From Sipunculus nudus (Eukaryota > Annelida > Sipuncula > Golfingiida > Sipunculidae): a stretch of DNA of 64,000 bases. The notes beneath the pieces were generated by a model. The model had not been told where the DNA came from and ran no database searches. It saw only the letters and a program-made list of their open reading frames with translations. The DNA lies in NCBI GenBank assembly GCA_026874595.1, contig CM049311.1:12553676-12617675 (forward strand), given 5' to 3'. Each line of letters starts with the position of its first letter. The stretch's first letter is position 1. Of this stretch, positions 2,326 through 57,796 are shown one piece after another. The position numbers and the translations under genes are program-made.

Positions 2326-2688
2326 TCACGATACCTGATAACTGTCACGACGTAGAAGACGTTTTCCTCTTTTATACCACGGTTTACGCATTTTCGAATG
2401 GGGTATTGCATCATCATTCTTTCCCTTTTCTTCTTCTTGTTGAGATGAAAAAAATAATAATTTGGGAAATTCTTGTTTTCCGTTTGTAACCATTGATGTT
2501 TCGTATCTCGTTGGGATCAAATAGTCATCGTTATTTGTCTTACTACCCTTTAGATCTGTCTCTTTTTGTTCACATTTCAACATCCTGGGTCTCCTCGTCG
2601 CTGGGGGACTAGGGGCTTTCATGTTGGGTTCTTGCCACTTCGTAAATGTAGATTCATCTTGAAAATCCTTTGTCCGACTGCTGGAAGT
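2326..2688 (-). CDS. Gene 1 cytoplasmic tail, last coding exon
   Basis: This 363-nt exon includes the stop codon. It shares blocks with the gene 2 tail: APSPPAT, NDDYLIPTR, and a basic KMRKPWYKRGKRLLRR stretch near the end. The Tyr of Asp-Asp-Tyr-Leu-Ile-Pro (codon 2521-2523) resembles a phosphotyrosine docking site. The protein ends Ser-Tyr-Gln-Val-Ser. No polyadenylation signal was assigned with confidence. Confidence 0.88.
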   Translation of the reverse strand, partial: TSSSRTKDFQDESTFTKWQEPNMKAPSPPATRRPRMLKCEQKETDLKGSKTNNDDYLIPTRYETSMVTNGKQEFPKLLFFSSQQEEEKGKNDDAIPHSKMRKPWYKRGKRLLRRDSYQVS

Positions 2689-5600
2689 CTGAAGGGTATA
2701 TGCAGTTAATTAAAAATCACGTCAATGGGACATTCTTCAAGATCTGTAGATTGCCCAATGACTGATATGTTAATACTATCAGAGATAACGCTTCGTAACG
2801 TGTGCTCATCAAACACAGGAACATTAAACGACATGGGGTTTATGATTGAAAAGTATAAGCATGGCAGACATGTTTTAACTAAAAATCGATATTATCCAGG
2901 TATAATAAAAGACTGCATACTCTTCAATCTCTCTATTATACACCCCTCTCATAATATGGTTTTGAAGTAAAAAGGTGTACCCTATTTAATGACTTAATGA
3001 ATACATGTTTGTAGTAATCAGACTTTTCTTTCGCAATGGTATCTTTGAATGTTTTACTCGAGTCTTTTGACATGTACTTTAAATTCTGCGCCAACCATAA
3101 CCTCATCTTAGTGATACCCGTGTAATCAAAGTTAGATTACTCAAAAAGAAAAAAAAGTAATCGTAAACACTCACTGTTTGGGTTGTTGCACTTCTCAGAA
3201 ATTTCTTTTTCCTGGACTGACAACTTTCGCGAACCTAATAATTTTACATTTTATAAAATACAAATTATGGTAATTTAGGTCTTTATGTATTTAACTACAA
3301 TTTCAACCCACCAGTTTATTTAACGATTATGATTGACTTATAACCAACGCATGTATTCTGATTTCAAACAAAAACCCTCTTATAAACAAATTTACAGAAT
3401 TTAATAAAATTTATAGACTAGCAAGAATGTCCAGAGTATTCTTCATGAAGCATCAACTTATATCAACTTGTAACTGACATTTCATCAGACACATTGTATG
3501 ACACATTTGCAAACACGTCCCCTGTGTTTTGGATTATCTATATGGATTATTCATTATCATTGAATTCCCTTGTTTATTTCTGTCCTTCATGCCTCACTTA
3601 CCTTAGGGTTTAGCAAGCAGTGGAATACGAAAATAAAAACTCCCTGCAAATACAGAAAATGTTAAATAATTTAAACAGATGCATGCATAAAATTTTTAGC
3701 CTCTTTGCAACCTAATGCTATATCGGACAATTGCGAAAAGCAAATGTGAGATGTGCAGTAAATTATGTGCTTACAAATTTTTTTATTTTTTTTTTTTTTT
3801 ATTCCTGTCCCTACCTGGAAAGAATTTGCTATGGCAAATATCCATTGGAACACGAAGCGCGCGTGGACATTTGGGACAACAGTTAATGCACCAAAAACCC
3901 ATGTGATTCCGAGCAATGGTGTAAGTACACCTATATTCCATAAAATAGACCTGGAACAAGTATTTACTAAACATTATATTACAGCGAAATCGACAACAGG
4001 CAGGTTCTGTTAATACTAAATGATCTGTGTCATCACGGATGACAAAATCGAGATATATGCATATGGCTTACCTTGCCTTTTTCCTCCTTGTATCATTTTT
4101 TGACAAATTCATTGCCTTGTATACGACAATTACCAAGATGACCACATTTATCTGAATAAAAAAAATACTAAAGAATAACCATTTAAAAATCATCTTAATA
4201 CGAAAGGGGATGATGTATCGGCAATGTACCACAGGTTTTTCCCTCCAACACACCCAGTTGAGAAAAACAGCTAACATCTGTTTTCAAAGTATCATACATG
4301 TTGACTTCACTTGTCTAGAGTTTTCACCCACAAGTCTTAAGACTTATCCAAACAGTGCATTAAATAAACACGTTTTGTAAACAATTATAGGCCTTTGTAA
4401 TAAATTTTATGGAATGACACGACTAGATATTTTAATTTGATATAAAATAAAGAGATTAAGCAAACGGCCTGAAGCATCATTTGGATAAGATAAACAAAAA
4501 TTAAATACTAACATTTTGCTTAAATTTGTTCAATTTCTCTTATGAACCTCATGAAAGAAATGAAATGTATGACAGAAGCATATCCACTTACCAGCACAAC
4601 TAAACCAATAGGAATAAGGAAACTCAGCCAGGCAAACAGATTGTTTAGCCAACAACTAAATAAGACAATGTAATACACCTTGACAACATACGACTAATAG
4701 TATGCATTAATTTCACCATTACTGTATGGTCAGGATTCAGTGCCAAATCGTTATAAATCCTTAAGTTTCCTTTTTCAAGTCATTTAAGTTTAGAATACTG
4801 TGCGATGAATGTATTTTATTTAAACAATGTACTTACAAGCTTTCGTTTCCATGACTGTGACCATTGGTTATAATGTGAACAAGGGTTACTAAGATTGCTG
4901 GCAAAACTATAAATGAAAATGAAATAAGTGGATCCGTATCCAAATACGTCACTATGTACCAAACCATAAATTATATGTTCGATAACCTAGAGTTTATGAA
5001 AGTTTCAATAAACATGAAATCCGAATAAATGTGAAAACAGCAATAAGATGCATTATAGTATTAGTAATTCAAATTTGAAAATAAAAATTGGTATTTCTGG
5101 AGGCAAAATATAATATATTTATATATTTATTTAAATTTTAAAGAAAATAACTAATCTTTTAATCAAACATCTACTTAGTGGTAGGAAATCCTGAAACCCG
5201 CTATCTAGAATAATACGCTATCAATTTTATTCTGCCTTCTGTTATAACAATCACTCTGAACCGAATAAACACGACCACTCCATCACTCGCTTTCTGCTTT
5301 TTAATTCTTTGTGAAAGTGAATATAAATTTATATTGGTATTGACAAATTAGTTTGATATTGACAAGAAAATAAAAATAAAATTAAAGCAAAATAAAAAAA
5401 AAAAGAAAGGATAATCAGTTTACTCCAAGCAGCAACAATTAGTGCCGCTGTTTCCCATTTCTTTCTCTGGTGAAAAACCATGATAACCGTAATCAGACAG
5501 TGGATGCCCTCTGCTAGCATCATGAAGAACGACGTCGTGAAGAAGAAATGCAGCAACACAGCAATAGCAGAACACAGGACCTGGTCAATAATAGTGATAG

Positions 5601-8600
5601 GTAAGATAAGTTCCTCCCATCTTTAAGATTTTCCATCACTTTAAATCATGTAACATCCATCAAAAGAAATCATTCTTTAGTTATGAAGGAGACAGTTGTT
5701 ACCAGTGAAGCGATAAATGATCCCAAAAGACGAGTATGACAAATGAGCCAATAAATGTTGGTATAAAGTTACTTGATTCGCATTTTAAAGGCTTGACCTC
5801 GCAATGTCTTGTATCAACTTAGGAACGCGAAGAAAATAAAAAAATATTTGTTATATACTGTTTACAGGATCAGAAGAAAATAAGGTGGCTAAGCCACGTT
5901 TGACACATACAATCAATACCATAAATTACTGAATATACTTCAATTTTTCCTTCGAAACGAAACTTTTTCTTTTTGTGGCCTCACCACAAGCTGAAACATT
6001 TATGTCCACATAGAGTTGCAAATAAGTGCTAGCAAATCGTTATGGTGGTAATTATTACTAGGCTTTGCCTACCTGGTTATGCACTTTGGACACACCAAAC
6101 AGAAATAAACAATTTGCAACACAGAGAGGTATACAGAAAAACACCAGCAAGACGCCCGTGTGAGAGCCAATCTTCCTACAAAAAAAAATGAAAGCTTCGG
6201 TGTCAATATCAGTAACATTCCATGCCTACAAGGATATAAAATTTAGATACATATATTTGTATATATCTAGGTCAGGATATATGTGTAGATATATGCAATT
6301 ATAAAGCGTTGCATTTTTTTGTGTTAAATACTAAAGATAACTTATGTAAAGCCGCTTTTATCATCATTTATTTGATCCTATCGTTTCTTTTATATTTGCC
6401 TTGTCAACATGTCTACATTTGAAAGAATGTTTAGCGTACATTAAATTTTTTGTAGGTGTGTAAGGTGATTTATAAAATACTTTGTTTTTATAAACCATTA
6501 CAGGTGAAACATGTTAGACTTACTTCCAAAAGATGATGTGACACAAGACAGTAAGGACTAAAGCTATGATGGAAAGACTCAGACCGATGGTGCTGACCAA
6601 TGAGAGTATTGCCGTATAGACTGGTTTCTGAAAAAAAGTTTGGCCTCCCTCATTTTATTAAGAATGAGACTTGAGGACGTATTAAACCTCATAGCAATGG
6701 TTGATATTATGATTTGGAGGATAGAGAGATCATCAAAGATCCACAGATATATACCCTTTTATTGAAGGGCTCGACTTTGAAGAACTGGATTAAAGTCGCT
6801 TGGTTCACTTTTTCTGGGTTAATTTATAATAAGGTCAATGTGTCTTATGGAGGAAGTTATCGCAGAGCTAAAAAGCCGCCACAAAGTTCTACGCAGTTGT
6901 TCTAGAGAATAAAACAACTTACATCATTTGATATATCTTATGTGTAAAGTAAAAACAAACGTTGTATTAGTATAGTGTACTTATGTGTTTCAGAATAAAG
7001 ATTTACTTTATATTTAATATATCTGTACTGAGAAATTTAAGCCCATTTAGAAATTGAGCATGTATGAAAAATATCACATAAACTGTCAGATTCGGCGATG
7101 GAATCGTTAACAACTTTTTTTTCGTATAACCATGTACATATTCTATATACCATATATCAGCCTGGAAAAGAACATGGCATATTTGGATGTACATAAAATT
7201 TCAATGTAGGTACCTACCATGACTAGATTGGGCGATATGATGACAGCAAAATTTGTCGTATGATTACAGGAACAGTTTACATGATCGCCATTTGTAGATT
7301 TATGACAACCATAATCTGACCAAGCCCCGCTCCTAAAATATATATTTGCCATCCTTATATTTAGTATTTATAGTATGAGTAAATGTCAATATATACTATT
7401 ATTTAGTTAATGTATTTTAATTTCCACAACCATTCTAATAAAAAATATCTTTAAAACATGTATTGAAGGAAAACATTGCGTATCAAAACGAAGTTACTGA
7501 TACTTAAACTTATACTGGAATTGGCATTATACCCAGTACCCATGCTTTCTAGTTCAACTAAAGCTAGCATTTGTATTTCACAGTTGTTTCCCTATATCTA
7601 CTATGTTATCTACCATTAAGTATACACTAAGGACATTTGATTTCTTTCAGAAGGTACAAACCACTCAGACTAACATTAACATAAAAATAATTAACCATGC
7701 ATTAGATAGCAGATTAGTATTGCGAGATGGAAGGAGACATTCGATACTTTCTTCTAAATGCAATATTTGCAATATTTAACAAAGGTTACATTTGTTTTAA
7801 ATATTCCTAACTGACCAGTTGGCAAATGTGTAATCCCAAAATACGCAAGCATTGGTTTCGTTGCTCAAAGTCTGAAAGTAAATAATATTTGAAAAAAGTC
7901 AACTGTATTATGTAAATAAAATAAAAGTAAATATGGGGAAATATGGCCAGTTGTCTATCTAACGAATGTCAGCGTAAACCCCTTGCATTTAATATCTCTG
8001 TTTTGGATGGCCTGCCTTCGAACACCAAGCTACTTTTGATAATGTAATGTAAATTGGAATTTAATAAAATTTTGTTTTCTTATAATTCCGAACATTAAAC
8101 TCTTTGCAACCCTCATTTCACACTTTACATGGCTGTTGATTATGACAAATATTCCTTATATCCCAAAGCTAGTGTATGGGCACAGACAAAGAGAAAAAAG
8201 ACGTTACTTGATATTATAATATTTTGTCGGATAAAACATTGAATGGTTTATAAACTTAGCGAAACTATTTGCTGAAATTTCACGTGTTCCTATTAATTTC
8301 CATTTCTAAATAGATTATTCAACACATGAAAATTCATAAAAAAAAGTTGCAACCTAGTAAGAGGTAACAACGCTGGGTTATCGAGAATAGGCACATCAAC
8401 ATGACATAAAGATGCTCTTCTCTCCCCTGCGGATAAATACCTATTTGTTACTATAATATGCTAAAAATACCTGCAAACTTGTTCTATTGAAAGAGAGTAT
8501 CAGAGGGTTATTGAATTCTGTAGATCCGTTCAGTTCCGCGAACGTCACAGACATCACACGTCCAATGCGGGAAATGTTGAAACTCTCTGTCCCCCTTTGG

Positions 8601-11600
8601 ATGAAACTTACAGCATTTTAGCCTGTCTTAAATTATTTGATGAATATTTTTTCTCTCATCTGATTACATATTTGATTTTGAAGCGTATTGCAAAAACATT
8701 CAATTTTCGTTTCAAAGTTATTGAATGGAACCATAACTGATATGATAATATTTAAAGCAACATTTATCATTCGGTCTTGTGTTAAGCATACGATCATTAG
8801 AAAATAACTGATTGATATTTCTGCAACTCACGAGTTCGTGGGGAAAACAGTTTGTGCGGTCCTATACATGTTACTGGACACTGATACACGTGTCTGGCCT
8901 GTTTTGTCTAAATCAAATCAACATATGCGATATATTTAATATGAAACTTTCTTGATATAAAAGATAATATATTCTAACATTTCATTTAACATGTTTGGTC
9001 TTCTCACTTCAGGACACCAACGAGGTCAAAAATCAGAAATTTTCTTGCTACGAATGACATCTTAATTAAACGTAGTCACCTTATAGAACTTCTACCAATG
9101 CAATATGACTGGCAAACACAAGCATTTACAATATAAGTCCAGTGGCACAAACTAATCTAACACAAGCGTTAATAATATCATTTGTATTCTAGCTAACGCT
9201 TTGTTGTATGCAGGATTGGAAATTTACATACCGGCAATTTCTAGGATAAGTTTACTGGTAACGTGTCCCGTGTCGGTGTTCCAGTCCTCTGTAGCCTCGT
9301 CTCTAAATGGGAACTGAATATCCTCGGTTCCCTTTGACGTGTTTGTTGCCTTTACTTGCATCACTAAATAAAAAAAAAGGTCCGGGATTAAATGACTTGT
9401 TTCCTCCACACTCAGAGATTTGTCTCTTGTTGTACTATATCCTTGAACCAATGTAATTTTGCTTTAATATTCTATTGATTTATGTGATTAAAAAACAGGC
9501 TATCCAACATATATTTTAAGATGCATTTTTAAATCAAATCCATGGTCTCTGTCGTATAATGAAATCCGGGAAGCCGGTTGGAAAATTCATAAAGGATTTT
9601 AGTTTTGTTCCCACTTTACCAGTCACATTCGGTTAAACTAGTCACAAAGGTTGCGATTGTTAATAATAGCATATTAAAAAAGGGAACTCTTCATGTGCAA
9701 ATGATATAGGTTGTCATGATTTATCACAAGTTTAAATAATTGTGTCCAAATTTCTCTATGATTTTGCAATAATAGCCATACGTTTTGCGTAAAATGAAGA
9801 CATACACTGTTTTGTTCAAAGATTAATATAAACTATATGTTTAGAAGGAATTTCAATTCAGTTTAAACTTCAATTTTTGTGTTATATCTAAATAAGGACT
9901 GTCAATGTTCAAATATCCAAAATAAAAGGTTCCTAGAGTTATTGTTCACTCAGATTGATGGCAGGTTTTTTTTTAGGAGTAAACATGGTAATTCCTAAAG
10001 TGTTGAATATTTAAAGCGAAAGATTTAGGTGTTAGCTATGGTAACATAAAATGTTTTAAGCAATACAGTATAAATTTGGTTTGGATATTAAAAAAAGTAT
10101 TTTCTTGAATACCACAGTTGCAATTAAGATTTTTAGTCATGATGTTTTTCAATGATATCTGAAAGCCACAGTAGATTGTTATATGTCCAGCGAAAAGTGT
10201 TGGGTTATCAAATTCTAAATTATTTTGAATATCAGGAAAGTAATTGAAAAAAAAAAACCTTGTCCCTACTGTCTAAAAGGATAAATTACAGCAGATGATA
10301 TTTTGTGATTGATCCAGTGTTCATAGTATGACCATCCTGTATGCAACAATCTGATTTCCAATTGTGCAATGAATTGTGAAGCTCAGATTATAAAATTATT
10401 TTCCCAACCCCCCGCCTCAATAAAAACACTGAAAGCAAATCCCAAAAGAGGTAATCAATATAACCTGGCATTTTTCCAAAATCATGGGAACTTTGCTGTC
10501 CATTTTGCACTTATTTTATTGTAAAGTAAAATAAAGAATATACATGTTATCTTAATTCTCGTACATACTATATTGGTGTATCTGAGACAACATGTTTGAT
10601 CAATGATCAAGGTTGGTTGTATAGACTTTGGAAATTACTCGAGTGATATAGATTGCATACTATTAAAAAAATTCTAGGTCTTACAGAAAATAATCTTAAT
10701 GTATTAAAGGGAAAATACCATTAAATCCGTACCATTTATACTGAAAATTCAAAGAGAAATAAGGGAGAAAGATAGATAGCTAATTGTCTTCGAGTAAAAA
10801 CATTTTAAGTCAGCCATTTTCTCTGACAGACGCGCACATTCTATTATTTTTAGTAAATGGAGGATTTTGTTTCATCTATAATTTGGTCATCAAATGTTTA
10901 AGGAGGTCCCTGGCTAGTTCAAAAGCGATCCCCTTGGAAAGACCAGTTGGTCTAGAGGGTTGCATGTAAACGGAACATTATGTTGCATACTGGTATGTTA
11001 TCAGTACATACGAAGGTTATCCGTTTTAATGGTCCTATTAGCCCCGACTGGAACGCTTCTTGAGAACATTTGACCATACAACTGGGCGGTCTGGACAACC
11101 TCCACACCACGACGGTTATTATCCTGAAATAGTTATACAAAGATTGTTAAGTGCATCTGATGCCAGAAATCAAAGCACCATACAAACAATACTAGAATGT
11201 CATCTGACTATTTCTAAATTATTGCAACATAAAGATATGTGTATAAAGGGATACTTGAACATTAAGAAGTTTGTTCAAATGTACCGGAGCACTTTGCCTC
11301 AATAATATATCTAAAGACGTCAAATGACTGGTGTAAAAATATTATATAATTCTTTCACAATAACACGTGTCAAAAGTATATATGAACTTTAAATATATTA
11401 TTAATATTTTATGGAGATAATATAACTTATAGTTTATATAATAAATAAATAAATCAAACTAATCAATTATGCAATCAAAATTCATTTCATGTTTAAGAAA
11501 AGTGTGTTACAGCTTATGTTATATATCTATTTATTTTTTATGAATAATTAGTTACCCGAGATATCTCTGACCACGCCTCCTGGTTATTTTGATCCAACAT

Positions 11601-14600
11601 TGTCCCGATTGACCTCACTACGGCCTAAAGGGAAGAAAGTAAGGTAAAAAAAAACCGTGTGACTAATTCCATGGGGGTGCTTAACAGAAAAATTATCCAG
11701 ATAGATGATATTAGTGTTGCTTTCTTGTGAGCTAGGTTTTTTTTGTCAAGCGAAGGATATAAAAGAATGGTGGGACATATTTTAAAAAAATGTCGCTAAA
11801 GAAACCAGTAACCAAGAATAAAATAATAGTATACACAAATAAGATGAAGAACCTTTGACATAACCGCTAATTATAAGCATCTTCACAATATATTTATAAT
11901 TTAATGATTTTTAATATGCCATACATATTTAATTTGTGGTAGGTACTGTGGAGGAATATTTTTTCTTTCCTTCGTCAAGCAACCATTCACACTAACAAAC
12001 ATTCATTTACCGCAGTTTCAGTCTGCGACACGTTAGCGGCGACTGCTGCTCTTGCTTCAGCTATCCTGGTCAGAGCGTCAGATGCTGCCAGCAAATTCCC
12101 TGACTGCATCCCGGTTGTGCTGTTAGCATCAGCCTTGGTTATGTTCTCTATCCCTGACGTCACTTCCTCTACACGGCCTGTGTCGTTGGCGCCACCGCCT
12201 TCGAGTATCTTTTCGGCCTGTTAGGTAAACAAGAGATCTATTGTTAGGGTGAATATAAAAGAAGTAATATTATGTATTTCTCAGTTCACTGACGCTAACC
12301 TAGCGTATAATACTTGTAATAGATTTTTATCACATTTGTGCAGTTTTTAGACGAACGAGCAAGACAATATTTCATTTACCTGGCGCATTAGCATTATCTC
12401 TATATACGAAATAGATGCTGATAAAATAAAAACGGGGAAATGCTTCTTGTTTGTAGTAAATGCCATCAGCTTGATATCTTACAATTTCCACATTATCCCA
12501 TTTCGCTGGCAATTTTCCATAAGACTATACAGAAGAAATTTTCAAAATTAAGGCCGTTTGTTGTGTATGTATTGTGTATGTGTTTGTGTATATATAACTT
12601 TATAACTGTATTGTTTATGGATTGTTTAGACACATCACATCTTCAACGGCCTTTTGAAAGTTCTCGTCCCTACAGGCGATGTAAACCGGGCTATCCCATT
12701 CGGCATCACGACCGGCAGTGTGTTGGGTACACATTCTCCTCAATAATCCTGTCAATTTAAAGAGTATATATTGTATTGTAATTTTGTAACAAAATAAGCG
12801 ATTAACTGCAAAAACGTGTGTAGGGATTTTTTTTTGTTGGCTGTAAACCAAAAATATTTTGTAACGTATGACTTGTATACACCTTGTAGAAATACCTAAG
12901 AAGGATAAAGATGATGGATCATTGGCAAGATTGCTTCTAATAAAGGACAGAATCTTACAATTGTAAAGTATGATAGGGTTTGCCACATAAGAGCATCCAA
13001 TACACAAATCCATTGCCATTGTGTTAAACACACGTAGAAATCGTTACGCCCGCATTGAACTTATTATCAATTATGTAAAACTGTCATTTAGCATATAGTG
13101 AGAGAATGCAACAGGGGTCTGATTATTTTTGTATAAAGATTTGCATTGAATGCATGTATAATCAAACCATAAACTTTGTAAAATGCAAACCAAACGCAAT
13201 AAAAAACAAATGTAATTACACTACAATAACATTGTACAATAAAAGGTACGTATGAAGGAAATGTAATAAGAAGCCGAAAATTAATTTAGTACACTGACCT
13301 ACTTGACCTTTTGGACAGGGCGCATTCACTGTAGTTTTTCCCACAGAGTCCTCGGCCACACTATCCCGTTTAATGTCTCCTCATCACAGACCGTCTTGGG
13401 TTCTGGTGAACAAAACGTATTTGCACGAAAAGCGGATAGCAAGAATTATACTTAAGGCATTAATAAGAGAATAGAGAGATTTATATCGAATGAAAGTTAA
13501 GTTCAAGTTCCATTGTTGCAGGTGAACATTTGATATAATGTCCAATAATTATCATTTTTAATGTGCTATAAGCAGTAATCAAGTCAAATAAATGTAGCAA
13601 ATAAATAATATTTTCTATAAAATATCGACTTGTAAATTTACCGTGTTCCTTTTGAGGCTCTATCCCCCTGACTTTACATGATTTTTGGTCCTTGCCAACA
13701 AGATTTTTGGCCTTGCAGGTCAGAGTTAAATCCAAGGAGACTGTCGTATTGAGTACTTGAACGATTGAATTCCCGGTCCTGACTGTTGTAATTAGGCTAC
13801 CTGGAATTTAACCATGAAATGAAATATCTACAAGAGAATAAAAACAATTTTTATGAATGAGTATTAAACTTGTGGCTTATGTTGTAGTTATGCATAAGTT
13901 ATACAATAAAGCTTACCCAGGCTCTCACTCAGGGTATGCCATTGTTTTGTCTTAATCTTGGTGGATTCCTGCCTAATACAGTGACTAAGACTTACTTACT
14001 TTATTGTATTTGCAGTCACCTAGCGTGACGTGACAGCCCGGGTGCTTGAATAAGGCTGCGCAAATGCCAAAGCAGAGATCTTGGCTGAACAGAATTGTCC
14101 CACTACCCATTGTGCAATGGCCATGAATATATACCAGAAGGGTAGTTGTTGTCATGACGTAATTCAATTGTTTAACATTTGGTCTGTTTTATTGCAAGGA
14201 ATGCCATAATTTTGGCCAAACGGGATTGATAAAGATAGTACTGAAAAGACTTCCTCATCGAGATGTTTACAGCAGTTTTTTTGTATAATTCTTAAATGTC
14301 TCATCATTCTTAAATGGCCTATTGGCTCTCTGACTGACTCCCGTCACCTGCCTCTTTTCTCATTTCTGGGTCCACAATTTTATCGGTTTCGTGATTGGTG
14401 CATATGAATACAGTTGCTCGACTGGTTAAAAACACTATTGTAGGGAGTAAATGAAAAAGAAGTGGGGCTCACAGATAATGATTATATCTGACGTTTTCGA
14501 GTAGAACAACATCCTTCATGATAAAAATATACCTATCAAAGGTCCGGTGTCACCCTCCCAGTCAATGGTGATATTATCGAGTGAAGACACAGTATTCTGG

Positions 14601-14826
14601 TTCGGCAAAGTCACAGTGCAGGAGACCTGCACGGACTGACCTTTGTCGACAGCGATTGTATTAGGAAAAACAGAGACCCGAGGACGTGACAAGACTATCA
14701 GGCTGACAGAGGTTGTTCGTGTAGTGCCGGAGTTCAGGGCTTGGCAGACAACTGTACCTGTATAGCAACATATAACATAATATGATGTTAAAGCGTATTG
14801 TAAAGTTCAGCAATATATATAAATAA

Positions 14827-14857
<31 letters not shown>

Positions 14858-20800: not shown

Positions 20801-22691
20801 GTGTTTCTGCTTACAGTGGACTGGCTGACATGAAACTGGAAGGCAAGCTCTTGATCTAAGGTGGCTAACCTAAGCTTCTTTAGGAACATTAACATCTGGT
20901 CAAATAGTGGCAGTTTACAAGAATTGCCAGTGTCATACATCCTATTAGACATGTTTACTTTTAGTCTCTGGTATCGTGCCCATGTTGTCATTCTAGCAGC
21001 ATGTGGAGAAATGGAGTAAAAGAAGGATTTCAACAGTTCATAGTTAGTGAATCCAGTGAAAAATCTTATGTCGTCTGGATTTGTGGAATACTCGGCCAGC
21101 CCGAATCTTTCTATTTCATATTTCACCACCTTCTCCTCTAGTTGTTGAATGTATTCCTGGGCTGTTTGCAGTTTCTCTGCATCAGTTGTGGGTGCAGATG
21201 TATAATCCTTAGTCTGCCCCAATAGTGTTCTGTGGAACCTCCAAATTACTGAAAAGAAACAAAAGTAAAAATTATAATACTATATACCACATGTCAGGGG
21301 TCCTTTGCACATGCATGAAATATTCTTAAATATGTAAAATGAAATCATTGCAATATTTTATTGAGCAGATATAACTGAATTATTTTGTATTAAGCAGTAT
21401 TAGCCAGTAATTGAGGTACTTACTAGCCATGTTAAAGCCAATGTGGCTGTTGCATGCTTAAGTGAACTGAAAGTGAACAGGTAAAGATAACTGGCATTGA
21501 AGAGGAGTGCCATATCCCCCTTTTGTAAGTTTTCTATGGTTGCTGATACAGTGCATTATATGAGTTCTGATTAAATAAACTGTGTGAGATTTTGCTGATG
21601 TTGCCATATGTATCTTTTGCAAGATTCTAGTATCCTGTAATGTGAATGTGTAAATACATTACACTGATGTTACATACAAGAGCATACATACAAGCAAACT
21701 GTAGAGTGTGTCAAATCTTAAACTAAACAATATGTAAATAAAATCAATAAAGTAAAATTTGATACCTGTCATCTGATGTTGATGGGCCAAGGGTTGGCTC
21801 AGCAATTTTCCTAATTTTAGGCGGCTTCCTTGGTGTTACCGTTGTCCAGGAAAATTGGGTTGGAACAACGCCTGCTTTTAGTTTTCTGACACCTGTCAGG
21901 GTCTTCATAAAGTCCTCATCATTGAAGTGGGCAGAGCATACATATGTGCGGTTTGTCACCTGTACGTTAAAACAAAAATTCATATAAATTAGACCTTCAT
22001 TCACATGCATATAAATGTGGTCTTCAACCACCAATAATGCACAGGCCCTAATACTGGTACTTAACTCTTAACTCTTATAAATGAAAAATATGTTTTACAA
22101 CTTCACATACTCTTTCTTTATAAGCATTAGTACAGCATTTATAGCATTAGTAAAAGAAGTAAACACAAGTCAATAATATTAAGAAATGTTTAAAATAATT
22201 TGTTAAAAATTACTCATTAAAACTAATTATTAAAAACTCGTTATCAATAAAAAAACAAACAGATAAAGTTGCTAAGTATCATGTGCTGATGATTTGCATC
22301 AAATAAACTAATATAACATAATTGTAGGGCCGCTACAAGACTTGAACAGATTCATGCATCTGCGCTATGAATTGTAAACAAACCATGATTGACGCCATAA
22401 ATCTTTCTAATATCGCTCATGTCATGAACATACCGCGAAGTTGGGTCCTTCGTCCCGCTTTATTTTCACAATTCACTTCTTCCTCAATTCTTTATCACTG
22501 GGAAACAGGTGAAAAGATATCTTCTTTTCATCTTGTGCAGTTTTATGCTGATAACGCGCATCGTTTGTGCACTTCGGTACAGGGCAGTGAAACATGCTGT
22601 TTGCAGTCGCAGCCTCGTTTTGAGTTAGCTATGGCGAAAGCGTGAGTATGGCCTATTCCCGGGACTATCAGTGATACCTGCTCACTAATTC

Positions 22692-22747
<56 letters not shown>

Positions 22748-25625: not shown

Positions 25626-25671
<46 letters not shown>

Positions 25672-47699: not shown

Positions 47700-47786
<87 letters not shown>

Positions 47787-50700: not shown

Positions 50701-51237
50701 AAATATATTTGTCCAGGTTGGGTCCCTGATGTCAGGTTGAGTGTTATACTTCTAATCCGCTTGTCCAGTGAAGCACATTTTAAAGGCAACCTTTTCTTAT
50801 GTGTATTTCTACAATGACTTTACTTAATGAGTTGGTCATTATTAATTCGGAACTTGTGGTTAAGTCGGTAATAACAATAATTAAAAGCAATCTAAGAATC
50901 CTGGATTGAACAGCTTATGTTGGGTTATACACCTTCTGTCCATTAATTATTTATTAGGGTCATGTGAATATATCATTATAAATAAAGGTAATGCCTGAAT
51001 TTATCATTATTAAAATTATTTTGCGGTACCTGAAAATCCTTCAGTACTTGACACACCTTCTGTCGTGTGACGGTTTTCGGTGGGGGCAGGAGATGTGGCC
51101 ACTGCCTCCTCCGAGGTTGTTTTGGGTGAGCTTACGACTGTGGTCGATAAGAATTCCTCAGTTGTTGATGTCAATGTGGACGATGTAAGAGAGGACAAAA
51201 CAAGTACGAAAATCAGTTGTTTTTCCATGTTATACAT
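2326..51237 (-). CDS. Gene 1: giant adhesion-type GPCR with 26 FN3, 3 EGF, 2 Ig, HormR, GAIN/GPS and 7TM (multi-exon gene span)
   Basis: This multi-exon minus-strand gene would encode a cell-surface receptor of roughly 3,500 residues. Domains in order are a signal peptide, Ser/Thr-rich stub, 26 one-exon FN3 domains, three EGF-like domains, two Ig-like domains, HormR, GAIN with a GPS, seven transmembrane helices and a 140-residue tail. All ectodomain exons up to HormR use phase-1 introns, so they concatenate in frame and behave as shuffled modules. FN3, EGF and Ig modules are known adhesion and ligand-binding domains; GAIN/GPS is the autoproteolytic module of adhesion GPCRs; the 7TM part would act in the plasma membrane. 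A PHIS-type transposon sits in the intron before EGF-1. Odd points are a one-base deficit in the HormR exon, a broken FN3-16 and a frame problem in FN3-13. Joining exon 1 to the FN3 exons is inferred from strand, phase and the absence of another start. No orthologue is named. Confidence 0.85.
3175..3234 (-). CDS. Gene 1 cytoplasmic tail exon 1
   Basis: This 60-nt phase 0-0 exon encodes VRESCQSRKKKFLRSATTQT. It follows TM7 directly (NPK-VRE) and aligns with the gene 2 exon at 57512-57571. It is too short for simple ORF finding. Confidence 0.85.
3602..3643 (-). CDS. Gene 1 TM7 end exon
   Basis: This 42-nt phase 0-0 exon encodes GVFIFVFHCLLNPK, the end of TM7. It has the same length as in gene 2. 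Confidence 0.9.
3815..3950 (-). CDS. Gene 1 TM6 and TM7 start exon
   Basis: This 136-nt exon encodes GVLTPLLGITWVFGALTVVP (TM6 with Gly-Ile-Thr-Trp) and FVFQWIFAIANSFQ. Both are typical of adhesion GPCRs. The donor GTAGGG is followed on the intron side by a 21-base A run (T run on plus). Confidence 0.92.
4072..4151 (-). CDS. Gene 1 TM5 end and intracellular loop 3 exon
   Basis: This 80-nt exon encodes INVVILVIVVYKAMNLSKND followed by a basic TRRKKAR loop. The donor is GTAAGC. Confidence 0.88.
4592..4655 (-). CDS. Gene 1 TM5 exon
   Basis: This 64-nt exon encodes CWLNNLFAWLSFLIPIGLVV. The Cys-Trp-Leu motif is the usual adhesion-GPCR extracellular loop 2 signature that pairs with the TM3 Cys. 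Confidence 0.9.
4837..4906 (-). CDS. Gene 1 TM4 end and extracellular loop 2 exon
   Basis: This 70-nt exon encodes LPAILVTLVHIITNGHSHGN, then GluSer. The donor is GTAAGT. Confidence 0.86.
5424..5580 (-). CDS. Gene 1 TM3 exon
   Basis: This 157-nt exon encodes VLCSAIAVLLHFFFTTSFFM, then MLAEGIHCLITVIMVF and the basic loop HQRKKWETAALIV. The donor is GTAAAC, weaker than the GTGAGT of gene 2 at the same place. Confidence 0.88.
6073..6175 (-). CDS. Gene 1 TM2 exon
   Basis: This 103-nt exon encodes GVLLVFFCIPLCVANCLFLF, then GVSKVHNQ. The gene 2 copy is the same length. Confidence 0.9.
6524..6627 (-). CDS. Gene 1 TM1 exon
   Basis: This 104-nt exon from phase 0 encodes TAILSLVSTIGLSLSIIALV, then LTVLCHIIFW, a clear transmembrane helix. 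The donor is GTAAGT. Confidence 0.9.
7218..7332 (-). CDS. Gene 1 GPS, second exon with cleavage site
   Basis: This 115-nt exon encodes WSGAWSDYGC, then NCSCNHTTNFAVIISP. This is the GPS pattern Trp...Gly-Cys...Cys-x-Cys-x-His-x-Thr-x-Phe-Ala-Val. Autoproteolysis in the family occurs before the Thr after His-x, here between the two Thr of His-Thr-Thr. The residue before the cut is Thr where Leu or Met is commoner. What follows is the tethered-agonist (stachel) stretch TNFAVIISPN. Confidence 0.92.
7816..7871 (-). CDS. Gene 1 GPS, first exon
   Basis: This 56-nt exon runs from phase 0 to phase 2: TLSNETNACVFWDYTFANW. It contains the first GPS Cys and the Phe-Trp motif. Confidence 0.9.
8471..8594 (-). 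CDS. Gene 1 GAIN domain exon 6
   Basis: This 124-nt exon runs from phase 2 to phase 0: ESFNISRIGRVMSVTFAELN and NNPLILSFNRTSLQ. These are beta strands of the GAIN core before the GPS. Confidence 0.84.
8832..8907 (-). CDS. Gene 1 GAIN domain exon 5
   Basis: This 76-nt exon runs from phase 1 to phase 2: TGQTRVSVSSNMYRTAQTVF. Two in-frame acceptors 9 nt apart are possible (starts at 8907 or 8898). The longer form matches the length of the gene 2 exon and is preferred. The donor is GTGAGT. Confidence 0.82.
9232..9363 (-). CDS. Gene 1 GAIN domain exon 4
   Basis: This 132-nt phase 1-1 exon encodes VMQVKATNTSKGTEDIQFPF, then an acidic stretch and VTSKLILEIA. It starts the beta-rich GAIN subdomain B. 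The donor is GTATGT. Confidence 0.83.
9364..11011 (-). other. Gene 1 intron within the GAIN domain
   Basis: AT-rich intron of about 1.6 kb. No exon, repeat array or RNA gene was recognised. Confidence 0.4.
11012..11123 (-). CDS. Gene 1 GAIN domain exon 3
   Basis: This 112-nt exon runs from phase 0 to phase 1. It encodes RGVEVVQTAQLYGQMFSRSV, then PVGANRTIKTDNL. The Tyr codon of this copy is TAT; the paralogue has TAA at the same place. Confidence 0.8.
11556..11624 (-). CDS. Gene 1 GAIN domain exon 2
   Basis: This 69-nt phase 0-0 exon encodes AVVRSIGTMLDQNNQEAWSE, then ISR, a helix of GAIN. The gene 2 counterpart has the same length. Confidence 0.82.
12011..12217 (-). CDS. Gene 1 GAIN domain exon 1
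   Basis: This 207-nt phase 0-0 exon begins AEKILEGGGANDTGRVEEV and continues with an Ala-rich helical stretch (LAASDALTRIAEARAAVAAN). It is helical subdomain A of GAIN. The paralogous exon in gene 2 is 206 nt. Confidence 0.82.
12639..12748 (-). CDS. Gene 1 HormR domain, second exon
   Basis: This 110-nt exon enters in phase 1 and leaves in phase 0. It holds LLRRMCTQHTAGRDAEWDSP and VYIACRDENFQ, matching the Cys...Trp...Pro...Cys second half of HormR. I placed the donor at GTGATG after GAAGAT because the next exon needs phase 0. That donor is not strong. Confidence 0.72.
13299..13402 (-). pseudogene. Gene 1 HormR domain, first exon, with a one-base deficit
   Basis: The exon reads VCDEETLNGIVWPRT in one frame and SVGKTTVNAPCPKGQVG in another. 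Together they match the HormR pattern Cys...Gly-Ile-x-Trp-Pro-x-Thr-x-x-Gly...Cys-Pro-x-Gly. The exon is 104 nt where phase-1 neighbours require a multiple of three, so one base seems missing around 13347-13351. As written, a TGA follows within the exon. The acceptor and the GTCAGT donor look normal. It is either a real null allele or an assembly error; the corresponding gene 2 exon is outside the window. Confidence 0.75.
13642..13800 (-). CDS. Gene 1 Ig-2, second part
   Basis: This 159-nt phase 1-1 exon gives the end of Ig-2 with LDLTLTCKAKNLVGKDQKSC (F and G strands with Cys). The donor is GTAAAT. It leads into the HormR domain. Confidence 0.8.
14533..14757 (-). CDS. Gene 1 Ig-1 end and Ig-2 start
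   Basis: This 225-nt phase 1-1 exon completes Ig-1 (TVVCQALNSG) and begins a second Ig-like domain with VSVFPNTIAVDKGQSVQVSC and a Trp in ITIDWEG. The donor is GTATAT. The open frame that continues past its acceptor is a microsatellite translation. Confidence 0.82.
14827..14866. repeat. (GACA)n microsatellite in an intron
   Basis: A run of AGAC/GACA units ending in AAAC units, next to the Ig-2 exon. Confidence 0.9.
14996..15247 (-). CDS. Gene 1 Ig-1, first part
   Basis: This 252-nt phase-1 exon has Ig landmarks: Cys in QSFHCEF, Trp in FQWYLKG, and a C-terminal LAWDDSG that continues in the next exon as TVVCQAL. Together they form the Asp-x-Gly-x-x-x-Cys F strand. Two extra Cys (NCNPGRVC) lie between. 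The donor is GTATG. Confidence 0.85.
15483..15584 (-). CDS. Gene 1 EGF-3
   Basis: This 102-nt phase 1-1 exon is a shorter EGF-like domain: DPCIFTPCMNNVSCDNGTC, then YCAPGFEGRFC. The donor is GTAAG. Confidence 0.88.
15925..16035 (-). CDS. Gene 1 EGF-2
   Basis: This 111-nt phase 1-1 exon encodes a six-Cys EGF-like domain: EPCFSSPCQNNGTC, then FQCACLPFYSGSTC. It is a close relative of EGF-1 and the same length. The donor is GTACGT. Confidence 0.9.
16344..16454 (-). CDS. Gene 1 EGF-1
   Basis: This 111-nt phase 1-1 exon has six cysteines in EGF spacing: DPCISSPCQHNGRC, then FECTCPSPYSGIVC. There is no Asp/Asn-rich calcium-binding motif at the start. The donor is GTATGA. Confidence 0.9.
16455..17004 (-). 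repeat. Intron upstream of EGF-1 with a partial duplication
   Basis: Sequence just upstream of the EGF-1 acceptor (about 16455-16560) is partly repeated at about 16650-16740, including the CTGAAATG acceptor context and the AAAGTTGAxAATGGAAT word. It may be the remains of a duplicated exon boundary without its exon. Confidence 0.4.
17005..17027 (+). repeat. Left terminal inverted repeat of the transposon
   Basis: This 23-bp sequence starts CTCAAAACGAGGCTG and matches the reverse complement of 22602-22624 at 21 of 23 positions. Confidence 0.85.
17081..20026 (+). pseudogene. Transposon accessory protein: SWIM zinc finger plus YqaJ-like nuclease, broken
   Basis: Exons appear at about 17081-17310, 17784-17878, 18155-18316 and 18936-20026. 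The first has the family's FVEQQ...TSDRAYKFFLEGYVHD start. The second encodes VRSKCYRSQKKTELPH. The third carries a SWIM-type Cys-x-Cys...Cys-His-His finger (KCSCAATKGLCHHTIAVLYQ). The last has the YqaJ/lambda-exonuclease-like body, including RGIELEP, HLGCTQDRR and LTGALWCDFFVYAV. Lesions are an in-frame TAG at 19485-19487, a frameshift near 19540, compensating indels near 19693-19715 that remove the Glu-x-Lys catalytic motif, and a stop near 19778. The exact end of exon 1 is uncertain because it seems to read past the expected donor. The role in transposition is inferred from the family. Confidence 0.75.
18410..18935 (+). repeat. Minisatellite of about 60-bp units built from a splice-acceptor region
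   Basis: About nine units contain TATCTTTATTATACATTTTT followed by ACAG and then GACAGCACATCC. The array runs up to the real acceptor of the last nuclease exon (TTACAG at 18930-18935, exon starting CAATGGCACATCC), which looks like the founding unit. One unit is shortened to about 40 bp. The open frame at 18546-18908 is translation of this repeat. Confidence 0.85.
20165..22595 (-). pseudogene. Transposase: THAP domain plus DDE endonuclease, broken
   Basis: Exon 1 (22595-22434) encodes the first half of a THAP C2CH zinc finger: Cys-Pro-Val-Pro-Lys-Cys, then FHLFPSDKELRKK. Exon 2 (21959-21766) continues with YVCSAHFNDEDF, RKLKAGVVPTQF. Exon 3 (21248-20165) holds a coiled segment, a helix-turn-helix region (FQFHVSQSTVSR) and a DDE_4-like catalytic core: Asp in ILDCTE, Asp in SDKHIT and Asp in VMADKGF. 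Lesions are TGA at 22473-22475 where the conserved THAP Trp belongs, a frameshift with TAA at 21209-21211, TGA at 20791-20793 replacing another Trp, and a frameshift in an A run at 20329-20336. The protein would cut and move the element in the nucleus, but this copy cannot encode it. Confidence 0.85.
22602..22624 (-). repeat. Right terminal inverted repeat of the transposon
   Basis: Inverted copy of 17005-17027. It lies only 7 bp outside the transposase start codon (22595), so the promoter would overlap the repeat. Confidence 0.85.
22693..22743. repeat. (TC)n microsatellite
   Basis: About 51 bp of pure CT dinucleotide repeat just outside the right end of the transposon. It creates a spurious Arg-Glu repeat open frame on the minus strand. 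Confidence 0.95.
22894..23178 (-). CDS. Gene 1 FN3-26 (last FN3)
   Basis: This 285-nt phase 1-1 FN3 exon uses donor GTGAGT. It has GPEPPQNVRVVPASTTSLTV, then Ile-Trp-Asp, DHYTVTLKYHNQTTL and a three-codon longer hairpin. It is the last FN3 before the transposon-bearing intron and EGF-1. Confidence 0.86.
23542..23817 (-). CDS. Gene 1 FN3-25
   Basis: This 276-nt phase 1-1 FN3 exon uses donor GTGAGT. It does not fall clearly into classes a-e. It has a YYYTVTL C strand and a Leu-Glu-Pro-Gly-Gly turn. With FN3-26 it forms the membrane-proximal, non-cassette part of the array. Confidence 0.85.
24113..24379 (-). CDS. Gene 1 FN3-24 (class e)
   Basis: This 267-nt phase 1-1 FN3 exon uses donor GTGAGT. 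Class e marks are YPISTTSLRVVWDRPSAGYV and the short loop ERNHTWSLWKEFTHL. Confidence 0.85.
24713..24988 (-). CDS. Gene 1 FN3-23 (class d)
   Basis: This 276-nt phase 1-1 FN3 exon uses donor GTGAGT. Class d marks are AAAVGYVDYYTVRLRDASHR and SNNETTGPFKEIFSNLNPGE. Confidence 0.86.
24989..26081 (-). other. Intron between FN3-23 and FN3-22 with an (AC)n/(TA)n microsatellite
   Basis: AT-rich intron with an (AC)n to (TA)n tract at 25626-25665. The stretches around 25330-25450 and 25740-25860 share words such as TACGG, CCGTA and GTGGAAAC in opposite orientation. They could be the ends of an inverted-repeat element, but I could not align them convincingly. Confidence 0.35.
25626..25665. repeat. (AC)n/(TA)n microsatellite
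   Basis: A short AC tract runs into about 26 bp of TA repeat in the FN3-23/FN3-22 intron. Confidence 0.92.
26082..26357 (-). CDS. Gene 1 FN3-22 (class c)
   Basis: This 276-nt phase 1-1 FN3 exon uses donor GTAAGT. The class c mark PPSITSL is followed by a Trp and PSKGIVDYYTVTLKNTWQT. The exon reads through from the acceptor without a stop. Confidence 0.83.
27073..27348 (-). CDS. Gene 1 FN3-21 (class b)
   Basis: This 276-nt phase 1-1 FN3 exon uses donor GTAAGG. Class b marks are NVAPKGSIDYYTVRL and the Asn-Leu-Ser-Arg-Gly turn. It is the oldest-looking class b copy. Confidence 0.84.
27349..29257 (-). repeat. Intron between FN3-21 and FN3-20 with a dispersed repeat rich in TGACCT-type half-sites
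   Basis: About 27470-28530 looks like a dispersed repeat. It has spaced TGACCT/AGGTCA words, including a run of TGACCT-like words at 27681-27700 and AAGGTCAAGGTC at 28404-28415, and ends in an ACGACGACAACGG-type tail near 28514. About 28540-28780 shows two diverged direct copies of a roughly 110-bp segment. No exon is visible. Confidence 0.45.
29258..29533 (-). CDS. Gene 1 FN3-20 (class a)
   Basis: This 276-nt phase 1-1 FN3 exon uses donor GTGAGT. It is a second consecutive class a domain, very close to FN3-19, and only about 180 bp of intron separate them. It looks like a single-exon duplication. Confidence 0.86.
29712..29987 (-). CDS. Gene 1 FN3-19 (class a)
   Basis: This 276-nt phase 1-1 FN3 exon uses donor GTAAGT. 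It has the class a core RENVDYYTVTLEENNHTVLS and the NNTNRTG glycosylation-type loop. Confidence 0.86.
29988..30822 (-). other. Intron between FN3-19 and FN3-18
   Basis: AT-rich intron with similarity, near FN3-19, to the intron beside FN3-16. I see no exon or recognisable element. Confidence 0.4.
30823..31098 (-). CDS. Gene 1 FN3-18 (class e)
   Basis: This 276-nt phase 1-1 FN3 exon uses donor GTGAGT. Class e marks are HPVSTKSLTVFWDATSAGNV and the short hairpin VRNITWPFRETF. Confidence 0.85.
31511..31786 (-). CDS. Gene 1 FN3-17 (class d)
   Basis: This 276-nt phase 1-1 FN3 exon uses donor GTGAGT. Class d marks are NVDYYTVRVWDAFRRLIYLR and SNNETSGPFRETFSNLNPGE. Classes b and c are missing between it and the class a exon FN3-16, so this is a shortened cassette. 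Confidence 0.85.
32572..32818 (-). pseudogene. Gene 1 FN3-16 (class a), broken exon
   Basis: The exon keeps its acceptor and a GTGAGC donor but is 247 nt instead of 276. About 29 nt are missing from the central hairpin after DYYTVTV, so the frame shifts and reads into unrelated residues. FN3 sequence resumes in another frame (FTNLTPGEYYTTKV). Both flanking introns are phase 1, so skipping it would leave the rest of the gene in frame. I treat it as a decayed exon. A sequencing or assembly error is less likely for a 29-nt gap. Confidence 0.75.
32819..33561 (-). other. Intron between FN3-16 and FN3-15
   Basis: AT-rich intron. The part next to FN3-16 resembles the intron next to FN3-19 (from 29988), as expected if both follow class a exons in duplicated cassettes. 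No exon is visible. Confidence 0.4.
33562..33837 (-). CDS. Gene 1 FN3-15 (class e)
   Basis: This 276-nt phase 1-1 FN3 exon uses donor GTGAGT. Its N-terminal half is the twin of FN3-10 (LYPLYPVLRRSLTVVWDAAL). Its C-terminal half (FNVRNFTLSYRETF) differs from FN3-10. Confidence 0.85.
34149..34424 (-). CDS. Gene 1 FN3-14 (class d)
   Basis: This 276-nt phase 1-1 FN3 exon uses donor GTAAGT. It begins Pro-Asp-Ile-Pro-Arg-Asn-Val and contains DYYTVTVRDTYSRILYVRSN. It is the twin of FN3-9. Confidence 0.87.
34922..35191 (-). CDS. Gene 1 FN3-13 (class c, one-base deletion near the acceptor)
   Basis: This class c exon has donor GTGAGT. Compared with FN3-8 it lacks one T between the G run and CCAGG at the 5' end. 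With the homologous acceptor (exon starting at 35193) the length is 272 nt and a TGA follows after a few codons. A second AG two bases downstream gives 270 nt and restores the frame (Trp-Pro-Pro-Glu-Asn-Val). I placed the start on that rescuing AG. Which AG is used is not known. Confidence 0.65.
35487..35762 (-). CDS. Gene 1 FN3-12 (class b)
   Basis: This 276-nt phase 1-1 FN3 exon uses donor GTAAGT and has the class b core. It is nearly identical to FN3-7 over the whole exon and the first part of its intron. Confidence 0.87.
35763..36531 (-). other. Intron between FN3-12 and FN3-11 with a copy-specific replacement and a G run
   Basis: The first 150 bp beside FN3-12 match the FN3-7 intron, then sequence from about 35930 to 36430 is unrelated to the sister intron. 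It includes a 17-base G run at 36395-36411. It looks like a copy-specific insertion or replacement. No exon is visible. Confidence 0.5.
36395..36411. repeat. Poly-G run of 17
   Basis: Uninterrupted G run in the FN3-12/FN3-11 intron. It could form a G-rich structure and is also a likely place for length errors. Confidence 0.95.
36532..36807 (-). CDS. Gene 1 FN3-11 (class a)
   Basis: This 276-nt phase 1-1 FN3 exon uses donor GTGAGT. It has the class a core GETVDYYTVTLKGFYQTILS. The usual Trp-Asp after the B strand reads Trp-Tyr here. Confidence 0.85.
37347..37622 (-). CDS. Gene 1 FN3-10 (class e, mosaic)
   Basis: This 276-nt phase 1-1 exon uses donor GTTAGT, unlike the GTGAGT of its relatives. 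The N-terminal half is nearly identical to FN3-15. The C-terminal half, VPWKNSTWSFHETF, resembles FN3-5 instead. The switch near 37485 marks the junction of the cassette duplication. Confidence 0.83.
37934..38209 (-). CDS. Gene 1 FN3-9 (class d)
   Basis: This 276-nt phase 1-1 FN3 exon uses donor GTAAGT. It is almost identical to FN3-14, with only a handful of base differences, and the introns on both sides are also nearly identical to those of FN3-14. Confidence 0.87.
38707..38979 (-). CDS. Gene 1 FN3-8 (class c)
   Basis: This 273-nt phase 1-1 FN3 exon uses donor GTGAGT. Class c marks are PPSITSLNLTWDTPSKGIVD, then Phe-Tyr, with a hairpin one codon short. It is the intact counterpart of FN3-13, which has one base fewer near its 5' end. 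Confidence 0.86.
39627..39902 (-). CDS. Gene 1 FN3-7 (class b)
   Basis: This 276-nt phase 1-1 FN3 exon uses donor GTAAGT. It has the class b core NDASNGRIDYYTVRLWDYRS and differs from FN3-12 by only a few residues. Confidence 0.87.
39903..40894 (-). repeat. Intron between FN3-7 and FN3-6, with shared module and inverted repeat
   Basis: About 150 bp next to FN3-7 are nearly identical to the equivalent intron near FN3-12. A perfect inverted repeat, TTTGGGTCT-C-AGACCCAAA, lies at 40141-40159. The 40380-40790 module is related to 45680-46080. The plus-strand open frame at 40562-40786 lies in this module but is disrupted in the related copy, so it is not called a gene. Confidence 0.55.
40895..41170 (-). 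CDS. Gene 1 FN3-6 (class a)
   Basis: This 276-nt phase 1-1 FN3 exon uses donor GTGAGT. The core GETVDYYTVTFKKFSQTILS is class a. It is the paralogue of FN3-11, in the second of the near-identical cassettes. Confidence 0.85.
41696..41971 (-). CDS. Gene 1 FN3-5 (class e)
   Basis: This 276-nt phase 1-1 exon uses donor GTGAGT. Class e marks are YPVSRRSLTVVWDAALAGSV and Glu-Tyr-Tyr-Arg-Val. The second half (VPWTNSTWSFRETF) and the intron sequence just below it match FN3-10, which helps locate the duplication junction. Confidence 0.83.
42309..42584 (-). CDS. Gene 1 FN3-4 (class d)
   Basis: This 276-nt phase 1-1 exon uses donor GTAAGT. Class d marks are a start reading Pro-Asp-Thr-Pro-Arg-Asn-Val, the AATVGIVDYY core, the GPFNETFSNLIPGEFYVAQV stretch and an ending at Ser-Thr-Ile-Leu. 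It is the diverged third copy of FN3-9 and FN3-14. Confidence 0.83.
43113..43391 (-). CDS. Gene 1 FN3-3 (class c)
   Basis: This 279-nt phase 1-1 FN3 exon uses donor GTGAGT and acceptor TTAAG. Class c marks are PPSITRLNLTWDAPSKGIVD followed by Phe-Tyr, plus NNTERTGPFIEIF. It is one codon longer than the usual 276 nt. Confidence 0.83.
43988..44263 (-). CDS. Gene 1 FN3-2 (class b)
   Basis: This 276-nt phase 1-1 FN3 exon uses donor GTGAGT. Class b marks are the NDASNGRIDYY core, a WDYRS hairpin, VSVRNKTKAVRPFSETF and an Asn-Leu-Ser-Arg-Gly-Gly turn instead of Leu-x-Pro-Gly. It is closest to FN3-7 and FN3-12. Confidence 0.85.
44264..46221 (-). repeat. Intron between FN3-2 and FN3-1, with a decayed module shared with the FN3-7/FN3-6 intron
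   Basis: About 400 bp here (roughly 45680-46080) is recognisably related to 40380-40790 in the equivalent intron of the next cassette, so it was part of the ancestral cassette. The first half (44660-45500) is AT-rich with a stretch containing GTCACC/AGGTCA-type words. I see no host exon. Confidence 0.55.
46222..46497 (-). CDS. Gene 1 FN3-1 (class a)
   Basis: This 276-nt exon has phase-1 boundaries on both sides (acceptor before GGCCAAGACC, donor GTGAGT). It shows the FN3 landmarks seen in every copy: a Pro-Pro-Glu-Asn-Val start, a Leu-x-x-x-Trp B strand, Asp-Tyr-Tyr-Thr-Val in the C strand, an Asn-Leu-x-Pro-Gly turn and a late Tyr. The GETVDYYTVTLK stretch marks class a. It is the first FN3 domain after the signal exon. 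Confidence 0.85.
46498..51029 (-). other. Gene 1 intron 1
   Basis: I see no FN3-like or other coding exon here on either strand. The stretch holds a (TA)n/(GA)n microsatellite at 47702-47787 and AT-rich sequence. The plus-strand open frame at 49615-49932 is Cys- and Arg-rich low-complexity translation without domain features, and I treat it as chance. Confidence 0.5.
47702..47787. repeat. (TA)n followed by (GA)n microsatellite
   Basis: A TA tract at 47702-47760 is followed by a GA tract at 47763-47787, inside gene 1 intron 1. Confidence 0.93.
51030..51237 (-). CDS. Gene 1 exon 1: signal peptide and Ser/Thr-rich stub
   Basis: This is the only plausible start exon upstream of the FN3 array. 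ATG is at 51235-51237, with a second in-frame ATG three codons later. The Met-Glu-Lys-Gln start is followed by a hydrophobic Leu/Ile/Phe/Val core, a typical secretory signal. About 45 residues rich in Ser, Thr, Glu and Pro follow, which looks like a short mucin-like O-glycosylated stub. The exon ends at a GTACC donor after 208 nt, in phase 1, matching the FN3 exons downstream. No TATA-like element was recognised just upstream. Linkage to FN3-1 across a 4.5-kb intron is inferred. Confidence 0.7.

Positions 51238-57703: not shown

Positions 57704-57796
<93 letters not shown>

Follow-up and report, generated by a model that had tools for sequence, protein, structure and literature searches.

A locus on the minus strand of the Sipunculus nudus genome raises the question of whether a single gene joins a long array of fibronectin type III (FN3) exons to the signalling core of an adhesion GPCR, and whether that gene is intact. 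We analysed a window of 64,000 nucleotides (C6:12553676-12617675, within a 1.43 Gb genome) and read about 100 kb on each side of it, 263 kb in all. The gene in the window, termed B, evidently belongs to a tandem cluster of at least four receptors of its family (A-D). We consider it likely that the B locus is a single gene of this cluster, presumably transcribed and spliced in full, whose product would be an adhesion GPCR with a long stalk.

Gene model and membrane-proximal core

Gene B was modelled as 53 exons running from window position 51237 to 2326 on the minus strand, with GT donors and AG acceptors at all 52 introns, the sites being chosen by hand. Exon 1 (51030-51237; 208 nt, or 69 codons plus one base) encodes a signal peptide and a Ser/Thr/Pro-rich stretch, and ends in a phase-1 donor. 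There follow 26 FN3 exons of one domain each (22894-46497), three EGF exons (16454-16344, 16035-15925 and 15584-15483), three exons for two Ig-like domains (15247-14996, 14757-14533 and 13800-13642) and two HormR exons (13299-13402 and 12639-12748). The remainder comprises seven GAIN exons and one GPS exon (together 7218-12217, the GPS exon being 7332-7218), eight exons for the seven-transmembrane domain (7TM; 3602-6627) and two for the cytoplasmic tail and stop (2326-3234). An earlier reading of the sequence alone had described phase-1 junctions from the signal exon to HormR; the exon model agrees, with intron phases of 1-1 along this whole stretch except at FN3-16, and the second HormR exon enters in phase 1 and leaves in phase 0. 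Leaving out FN3-16 and masking the broken first HormR exon yields a protein of 3,448 residues, 3,043 of which precede the GPS cleavage point.

A domain search of the spliced pieces recovered fn3, EGF, I-set, GAIN, GPS and 7tm_2 above their Pfam cut-offs. GAIN (41.8 bits, cut-off 26.5) lies directly before the 7TM, and GPS (48.5 bits, cut-off 22.5) and 7tm_2 (121.9 bits, cut-off 20.6) also scored well. The three EGF exons gave two passing stretches; the first Ig-like domain was recognised as I-set, while the second fell just under threshold (Ig_3, 29.4 bits versus 30). HormR is common but not universal in adhesion GPCRs. That of B was masked for the scan owing to its frame break, and in paralogue D the corresponding HRM domain scored 30.6 bits (cut-off 26.2). 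A PF00002 search of the unspliced genome gave no match in the window among the matches listed (150 of 192 candidates scored); because the 7TM is split over eight exons, 7tm_2 is seen only on the spliced protein.

As in other adhesion GPCRs (class B2), the GAIN domain of B precedes the 7TM and the GPS is of the cleavage type (H-x-S/T). Its motif, CSCNHTTNFAV, aligns with CSCNHLTNFAV of ADGRL3, CSCNH.TNFAV being common to both, from which self-cleavage would be expected, exposing a tethered agonist that starts TNFAVIIS. ADGRL3 was also the best solved-structure match to the 7TM (E 1.4e-49), followed by ADGRF1. Latrophilins (ADGRL) are marked by RBL, a galactose-binding lectin domain, and in vertebrates by OLF too. 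Pfam reported neither in the pieces of B scanned (FN3-07 to FN3-16 left out, first HormR exon masked; exons outside the model could be missed), and the receptor is therefore not filed as a latrophilin despite a 7TM nearest to ADGRL3 among solved structures.

The neighbouring receptors share this core. The GPS pattern has four matches in the 263 kb, one per receptor. Paralogue A (C6:12.521-12.543 Mb, plus strand) has five FN3 exons, one EGF, Ig, HormR, GAIN and 7TM, with one candidate for its signal exon at C6:12519592. Paralogue C (C6:12.610-12.648 Mb, to about 12648257, minus strand) has its own signal and Ser/Thr-rich exon, three diverged FN3 exons, a further 21 FN3 exons, four EGF exons (one incomplete), Ig, HormR, GAIN and 7TM; its 3' part (tail, 7TM, GPS, GAIN) occupies window positions 56253-64000 and continues beyond. 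Paralogue D (C6:12.658-12.694 Mb, minus strand) has seven EGF exons, Ig, HormR, GAIN and 7TM, and no FN3. In both A and D the exons of the core have open frames.

Several other features were recorded here. Orphan FN3 exons of B's subfamily lie at C6:12549573-12550292 (plus) and 12492412-12493971 (minus), with no receptor core found beside them. A 7tm_2 exon match at C6:12360527-12360700 (plus, 36.4 bits), outside the stretch read, may mark a further member of the cluster. Overlapping open reading frames on both strands occupy window positions 53374-53672, between genes B and C, and a 280 bp tandem repeat is present in three copies at 49-888. A search with bacterial settings found no tRNA genes.

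Integrity of gene B

The proposal of an unusually long receptor with 26 FN3 domains was not borne out in intact form, as two exons are out of frame in the assembly. The first is FN3-16 (32572-32818), a degenerate exon of 247 nt that does not keep frame and can be skipped without a frame change. The second is the first HormR exon, which measures 104 nt versus 102 nt in A, C and D, and whose frame runs into an early stop. A third exon, FN3-13, stays in frame only if its acceptor is placed 2 nt further in. B as assembled thus does not encode the full receptor: it may be a recent null or a truncated secreted form, or a base may be wrong where the sequence has a short G/A run.

That B is a recent pseudogene, a null or a secreted-decoy allele, in which the HormR break would end translation before GAIN and 7TM and leave a soluble FN3-EGF-Ig ectodomain, is a serious possibility, if the less probable one. 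Besides the two defective exons, it draws on the state of paralogue C, which carries stops in two GAIN exons, in 4 of the 21 FN3 exons of its array and perhaps in Ig (where the exon boundary is unsettled), and which is probably a pseudogene with several stops and frame breaks. It also draws on the amino-acid changes since B and D separated, with 47 assigned to B, 28 to D and 42 unassignable (outgroup A, 678 codons, 18 of 20 exons), an excess in B that is compatible with weakened constraint. Against this, 51 of the 53 exons keep frame, including all 19 that lie 3' of the HormR break, and dN/dS between B and D is 0.118 over 782 codons from Ig to 7TM, indicating that the family is under strong constraint (the Ig-7TM figures for pairs with C exclude GAIN1 and IgB). 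Moreover, the break adjoins a short G/A run, a usual site of assembly errors, and the first HormR exon could itself be skipped in frame since its flanking exons meet in phase 1.

Structure and growth of the FN3 array

A profile of the FN3 subfamily recovered the 26-exon FN3 array of the sequence-only reading: its 26 matches in the window are confined to the minus strand, from 22.9 to 46.5 kb, and neither the shuffled nor the reversed (not complemented) window gave any. Because 25 exons of the window itself went into the profile, the count of 26 is partly by construction. Neither intron 1 nor the plus strand of the window yielded a further FN3 exon of B's subfamily in this search. The Pfam scan of spliced B, which took 16 of the 26 exons (FN3-01 to 06 and 17 to 26, FN3-07 to 16 being left out), found a passing fn3 stretch in every one. 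The 25 FN3 domains of B contain 66 sequons and a single Cys.

Mean nucleotide identity among the 26 exons peaks between exons five positions apart (0.797), compared with 0.656-0.686 at lags 1-4, 6-9, 11 and 12, and 0.736 at lag 10; in 20,000 reshufflings of the exons a value of 0.797 was never reached at any lag from 1 to 12. From the N-terminus the exons fall into classes a-b-c-d-e three times over, then a (degenerate), d, e, a, a, b, c and d; of the last three, the first is weakly e-like and the other two are end exons. A tree of 68 FN3 rows recovers these classes, with b, c and the core of e well supported and a and d less so, although it rests on 91 columns, has an unsettled bootstrap and leaves out B16. 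It groups exons largely by gene (8 label changes versus a shuffled mean of 33.7). The identity comparison left out C11, C18, all seven X and Y01-Y02, which gave no match to the donor pattern chosen; the tree regained the X and Y rows by match coordinates, with C11 and C18 staying out.

The array of B is evidently in large part a five-exon higher-order repeat that grew by block duplication. Two blocks (33534-35392 and 37319-39177, both minus strand) are 96.4% identical over 1.86 kb, introns included, and this pair is by all appearances a recent duplication. The latest block copy (exons 6-10 versus 11-15) has dS 0.061 and a pooled dN/dS of 0.65, with single pairs in the latest copies ranging from 0.43 to 1.63 on few changes; exons 1-5 versus 6-10 have dS 0.22 and dN/dS 0.40, and older pairs reach dS 0.5. 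Set against dS 0.64 for the 7TM of B and D, these values indicate that at least the last rounds of duplication postdate the gene split, and the pooled ratio in the latest copies suggests that the identity of the FN3 domains is only loosely constrained. The 21 FN3 exons of C, spaced about 610 bp apart, are nearly identical (mean 0.945, 19 of 21 compared), and that array appears likewise recent; a tandem repeat finder with a longest period of 500 returned no rows for it. As the FN3 exons are symmetric (phase 1-1), whole domains can be gained or lost by unequal crossing-over with no damage to the frame. We propose that such events, largely in five-exon blocks, would have lengthened the stalk of B; the locus would in this respect display a clean genomic mechanism, the frame-neutral gain of symmetric exons in blocks.

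The same symmetry bears on a different use of the array. If FN3 exons were spliced alternatively, by skipping or by mutually exclusive choice, one gene could yield many stalk lengths and faces, and every FN3 exon other than FN3-16 is phase 1-1 and interchangeable; stops confined to single FN3 exons in C would also be tolerable if those exons were skipped. We regard this as rather unlikely, because the five-exon groups were copied in order, as expected if all exons are used together.

One gene or two

Whether the FN3 array and the GPCR core belong together depends on the junction between FN3-26 and EGF-1. In B this is a 6.4 kb intron (16455-22893) with transposon-like open reading frames at 18909-22067: YqaJ at 19514-19777 (plus), DDE_Tnp_4 at 20320-20790 (minus) and THAP at 21747-22067 (minus). 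The distance from FN3 to the first EGF match is 6,439 bp in B; in A and C, where the two also share a strand, it is 490 bp and 965 bp respectively. The first EGF after the FN3 exons of C is incomplete, with the first complete one about 1.5 kb away. Given the short gaps in A and C, it is unlikely that FN3-26 and EGF-1 are separated by a stop and a second promoter. The sequence-only reading had assembled these exons into one receptor gene in the given domain order: the order stands, with agreeing phases and its repetition in A and C, and it is from these that we infer a single transcript. Phase and homology would likewise predict the splice of B into EGF and that of D from its first exon to the core.

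FN3 exons of B's subfamily also occur elsewhere on the chromosome. One array (C6:9874032-9884899, minus) is followed on its own strand, about 32 kb downstream, by PTP-domain exons at C6:9,842,216 and 9,838,951 (region 9838951-9842365), for which reason the array probably belongs to a receptor phosphatase; in the FN3 tree its members intermingle with those of A, B and C. A second array (C6:9973411-9989956, plus) consists of six near-identical exons about 1,060 bp apart, a seventh that is more diverged and then two diverged exons, and the PTP exons that share its strand are about 170 kb away, at 10.158-10.171 Mb. FN3 exons have likely been exchanged, in either direction, between receptor phosphatases and these GPCRs.

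It might thus be supposed that the GPCR starts at EGF-1 and that the array in the window is part of another gene, encoding for example a secreted FN3 protein or a receptor tyrosine phosphatase of the R3 type. The array near 9.87 Mb, the long gap in B with its transposon-like reading frames and the lack of FN3 in D would fit, and the FN3 pieces score on the Pfam Dep-1 FN3 models, though below fn3 and with no stretch passing alone. We judge this very unlikely, given the proximity of FN3 and EGF in A and C, the matching junction phases and an array that starts at a signal exon with a phase-1 donor. Moreover, the PTP signature HC[SAR]AGx[GA]R has no match in six frames of the 263 kb (a variant or intron-split motif would be missed), and PF00102 gave none there among the matches listed. 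Least probable of all is that the block repeats are a false duplication in the assembly, as the 1.86 kb pair in B at 96.4% identity and the mean of 0.945 in C might suggest: other same-class copies differ by about 6-23% and other pairs tried have dS 0.1-0.5, so most of the B array cannot be one sequence assembled twice.

Stalk length and comparison with known systems

Taken together, the results favour a single receptor gene whose EGF-Ig-HormR-GAIN-7TM part would be a conserved signalling module next to the membrane, its self-cleaved GPS holding the tethered agonist TNFAVIIS. The FN3 array would form a glycosylated, almost Cys-free rod that extends far from the membrane and may transmit adhesion or pulling force to GAIN. 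With FN3 domains about 3.5 nm long, the rod would measure very roughly 90 nm.

Paralogue D appears to have reached a long stalk by another route. What appears to be its first exon spans one open frame of 3,597 codons (C6:12693853-12683063, minus; loci L015-L016), which encodes a signal peptide followed by Thr/Pro/Ser repeats and from its first Met runs for 3,548 codons to a phase-1 donor, with 60% Ser/Thr/Pro; Pfam names nothing in its first 400 residues. The first exons of B and C, about 70 codons long with 50% and 48% Ser/Thr/Pro after residue 22, share with it an SG|GT phase-1 end and are short versions of it, and this shared end is the basis for the splice proposed in D. Stalks of several thousand residues would have been reached by FN3 block duplication (B, C) and by growth of a single mucin-repeat exon with additional EGF (D). 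An FN3 array in B and a mucin-like exon in D suggest that neighbours lengthened the stalk in two unrelated ways, and the mucin-like exon in place of FN3 favours length over a particular FN3 surface.

It is tempting, if improbable, to extend this into a proposal that stalk length itself is selected and possibly polymorphic, with unrelated routes tuning receptors to cell-cell gaps or force thresholds on a conserved module, and with FN3 exons exchanged with phosphatase genes. If so, alleles and cell types could carry receptors with different gap or force settings. To our knowledge, how far the length of an adhesion GPCR ectodomain sets adhesion distance or force sensing is an open question, for which the cluster offers a natural length series: a common core whose stalk comprises 5, 26 or 24 FN3 exons in three members and about 3,500 mucin-like residues in the fourth.

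FN3, EGF and Ig domains in such receptors are already in print. Latrophilin-like receptors with extra N-terminal EGF, Ig, LamG or FN3 domains have been described in several invertebrates (PMC6422961, whose available text gives no FN3 counts), and uniqueness of the domain set, suggested by a domain order that the sequence-only reading could match to no named adhesion GPCR, is not supported. B resembles these receptors in its GAIN, GPS and 7TM, nearest to ADGRL3 among solved structures, and in the EGF, Ig and FN3 of its N-terminus; it differs from them in the lack of RBL and OLF in the pieces scanned, in its 26 tandem FN3 in block repeats and in having neighbours with different stalks. FN3 is counted among the adhesion GPCR domains shared since before animals (available text of PMC12716839) and is listed in a figure legend on sponge receptors (PMC4302439). 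The ectodomain of B is like those of sponge and pre-metazoan receptors in containing FN3, domain order and array size being unstated in the available text of both articles. An amphioxus survey names other new adhesion GPCR domains, the sole 'fibronectin' in its available text being a reference title (PMC2246102), and FN3, FNIII and 'fibronectin type' are absent from the first 300,000 of 412,533 characters of a 2026 review. As far as our literature search extended, mostly over papers outside subscription, neither an FN3 block-repeat array nor FN3/mucin alternation turned up for any adhesion GPCR.

Two further systems invite comparison. With R3-type receptor tyrosine phosphatases (of the PTPRJ/Dep-1 kind) B shares an FN3 subfamily found beside PTP exons on the same chromosome; unlike them it ends in a 7TM, with no PTP signature of the searched form within 263 kb. 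In ADGRG4, ADGRV1 and CELSR the long parts are Calx-beta, cadherin or mucin-like and not FN3, and Pfam reported no Calx-beta repeats, the mark of ADGRV1, in the pieces scanned. For ADGRG4 a long region of about 2000 residues is described as flexible and glycosylated, and force-triggered signalling is reported for several adhesion GPCRs (available text of PMC13197933). B is like these three in its very long N-terminus and unlike them in building it from FN3; paralogue D, but not B, resembles the ADGRG4 solution.
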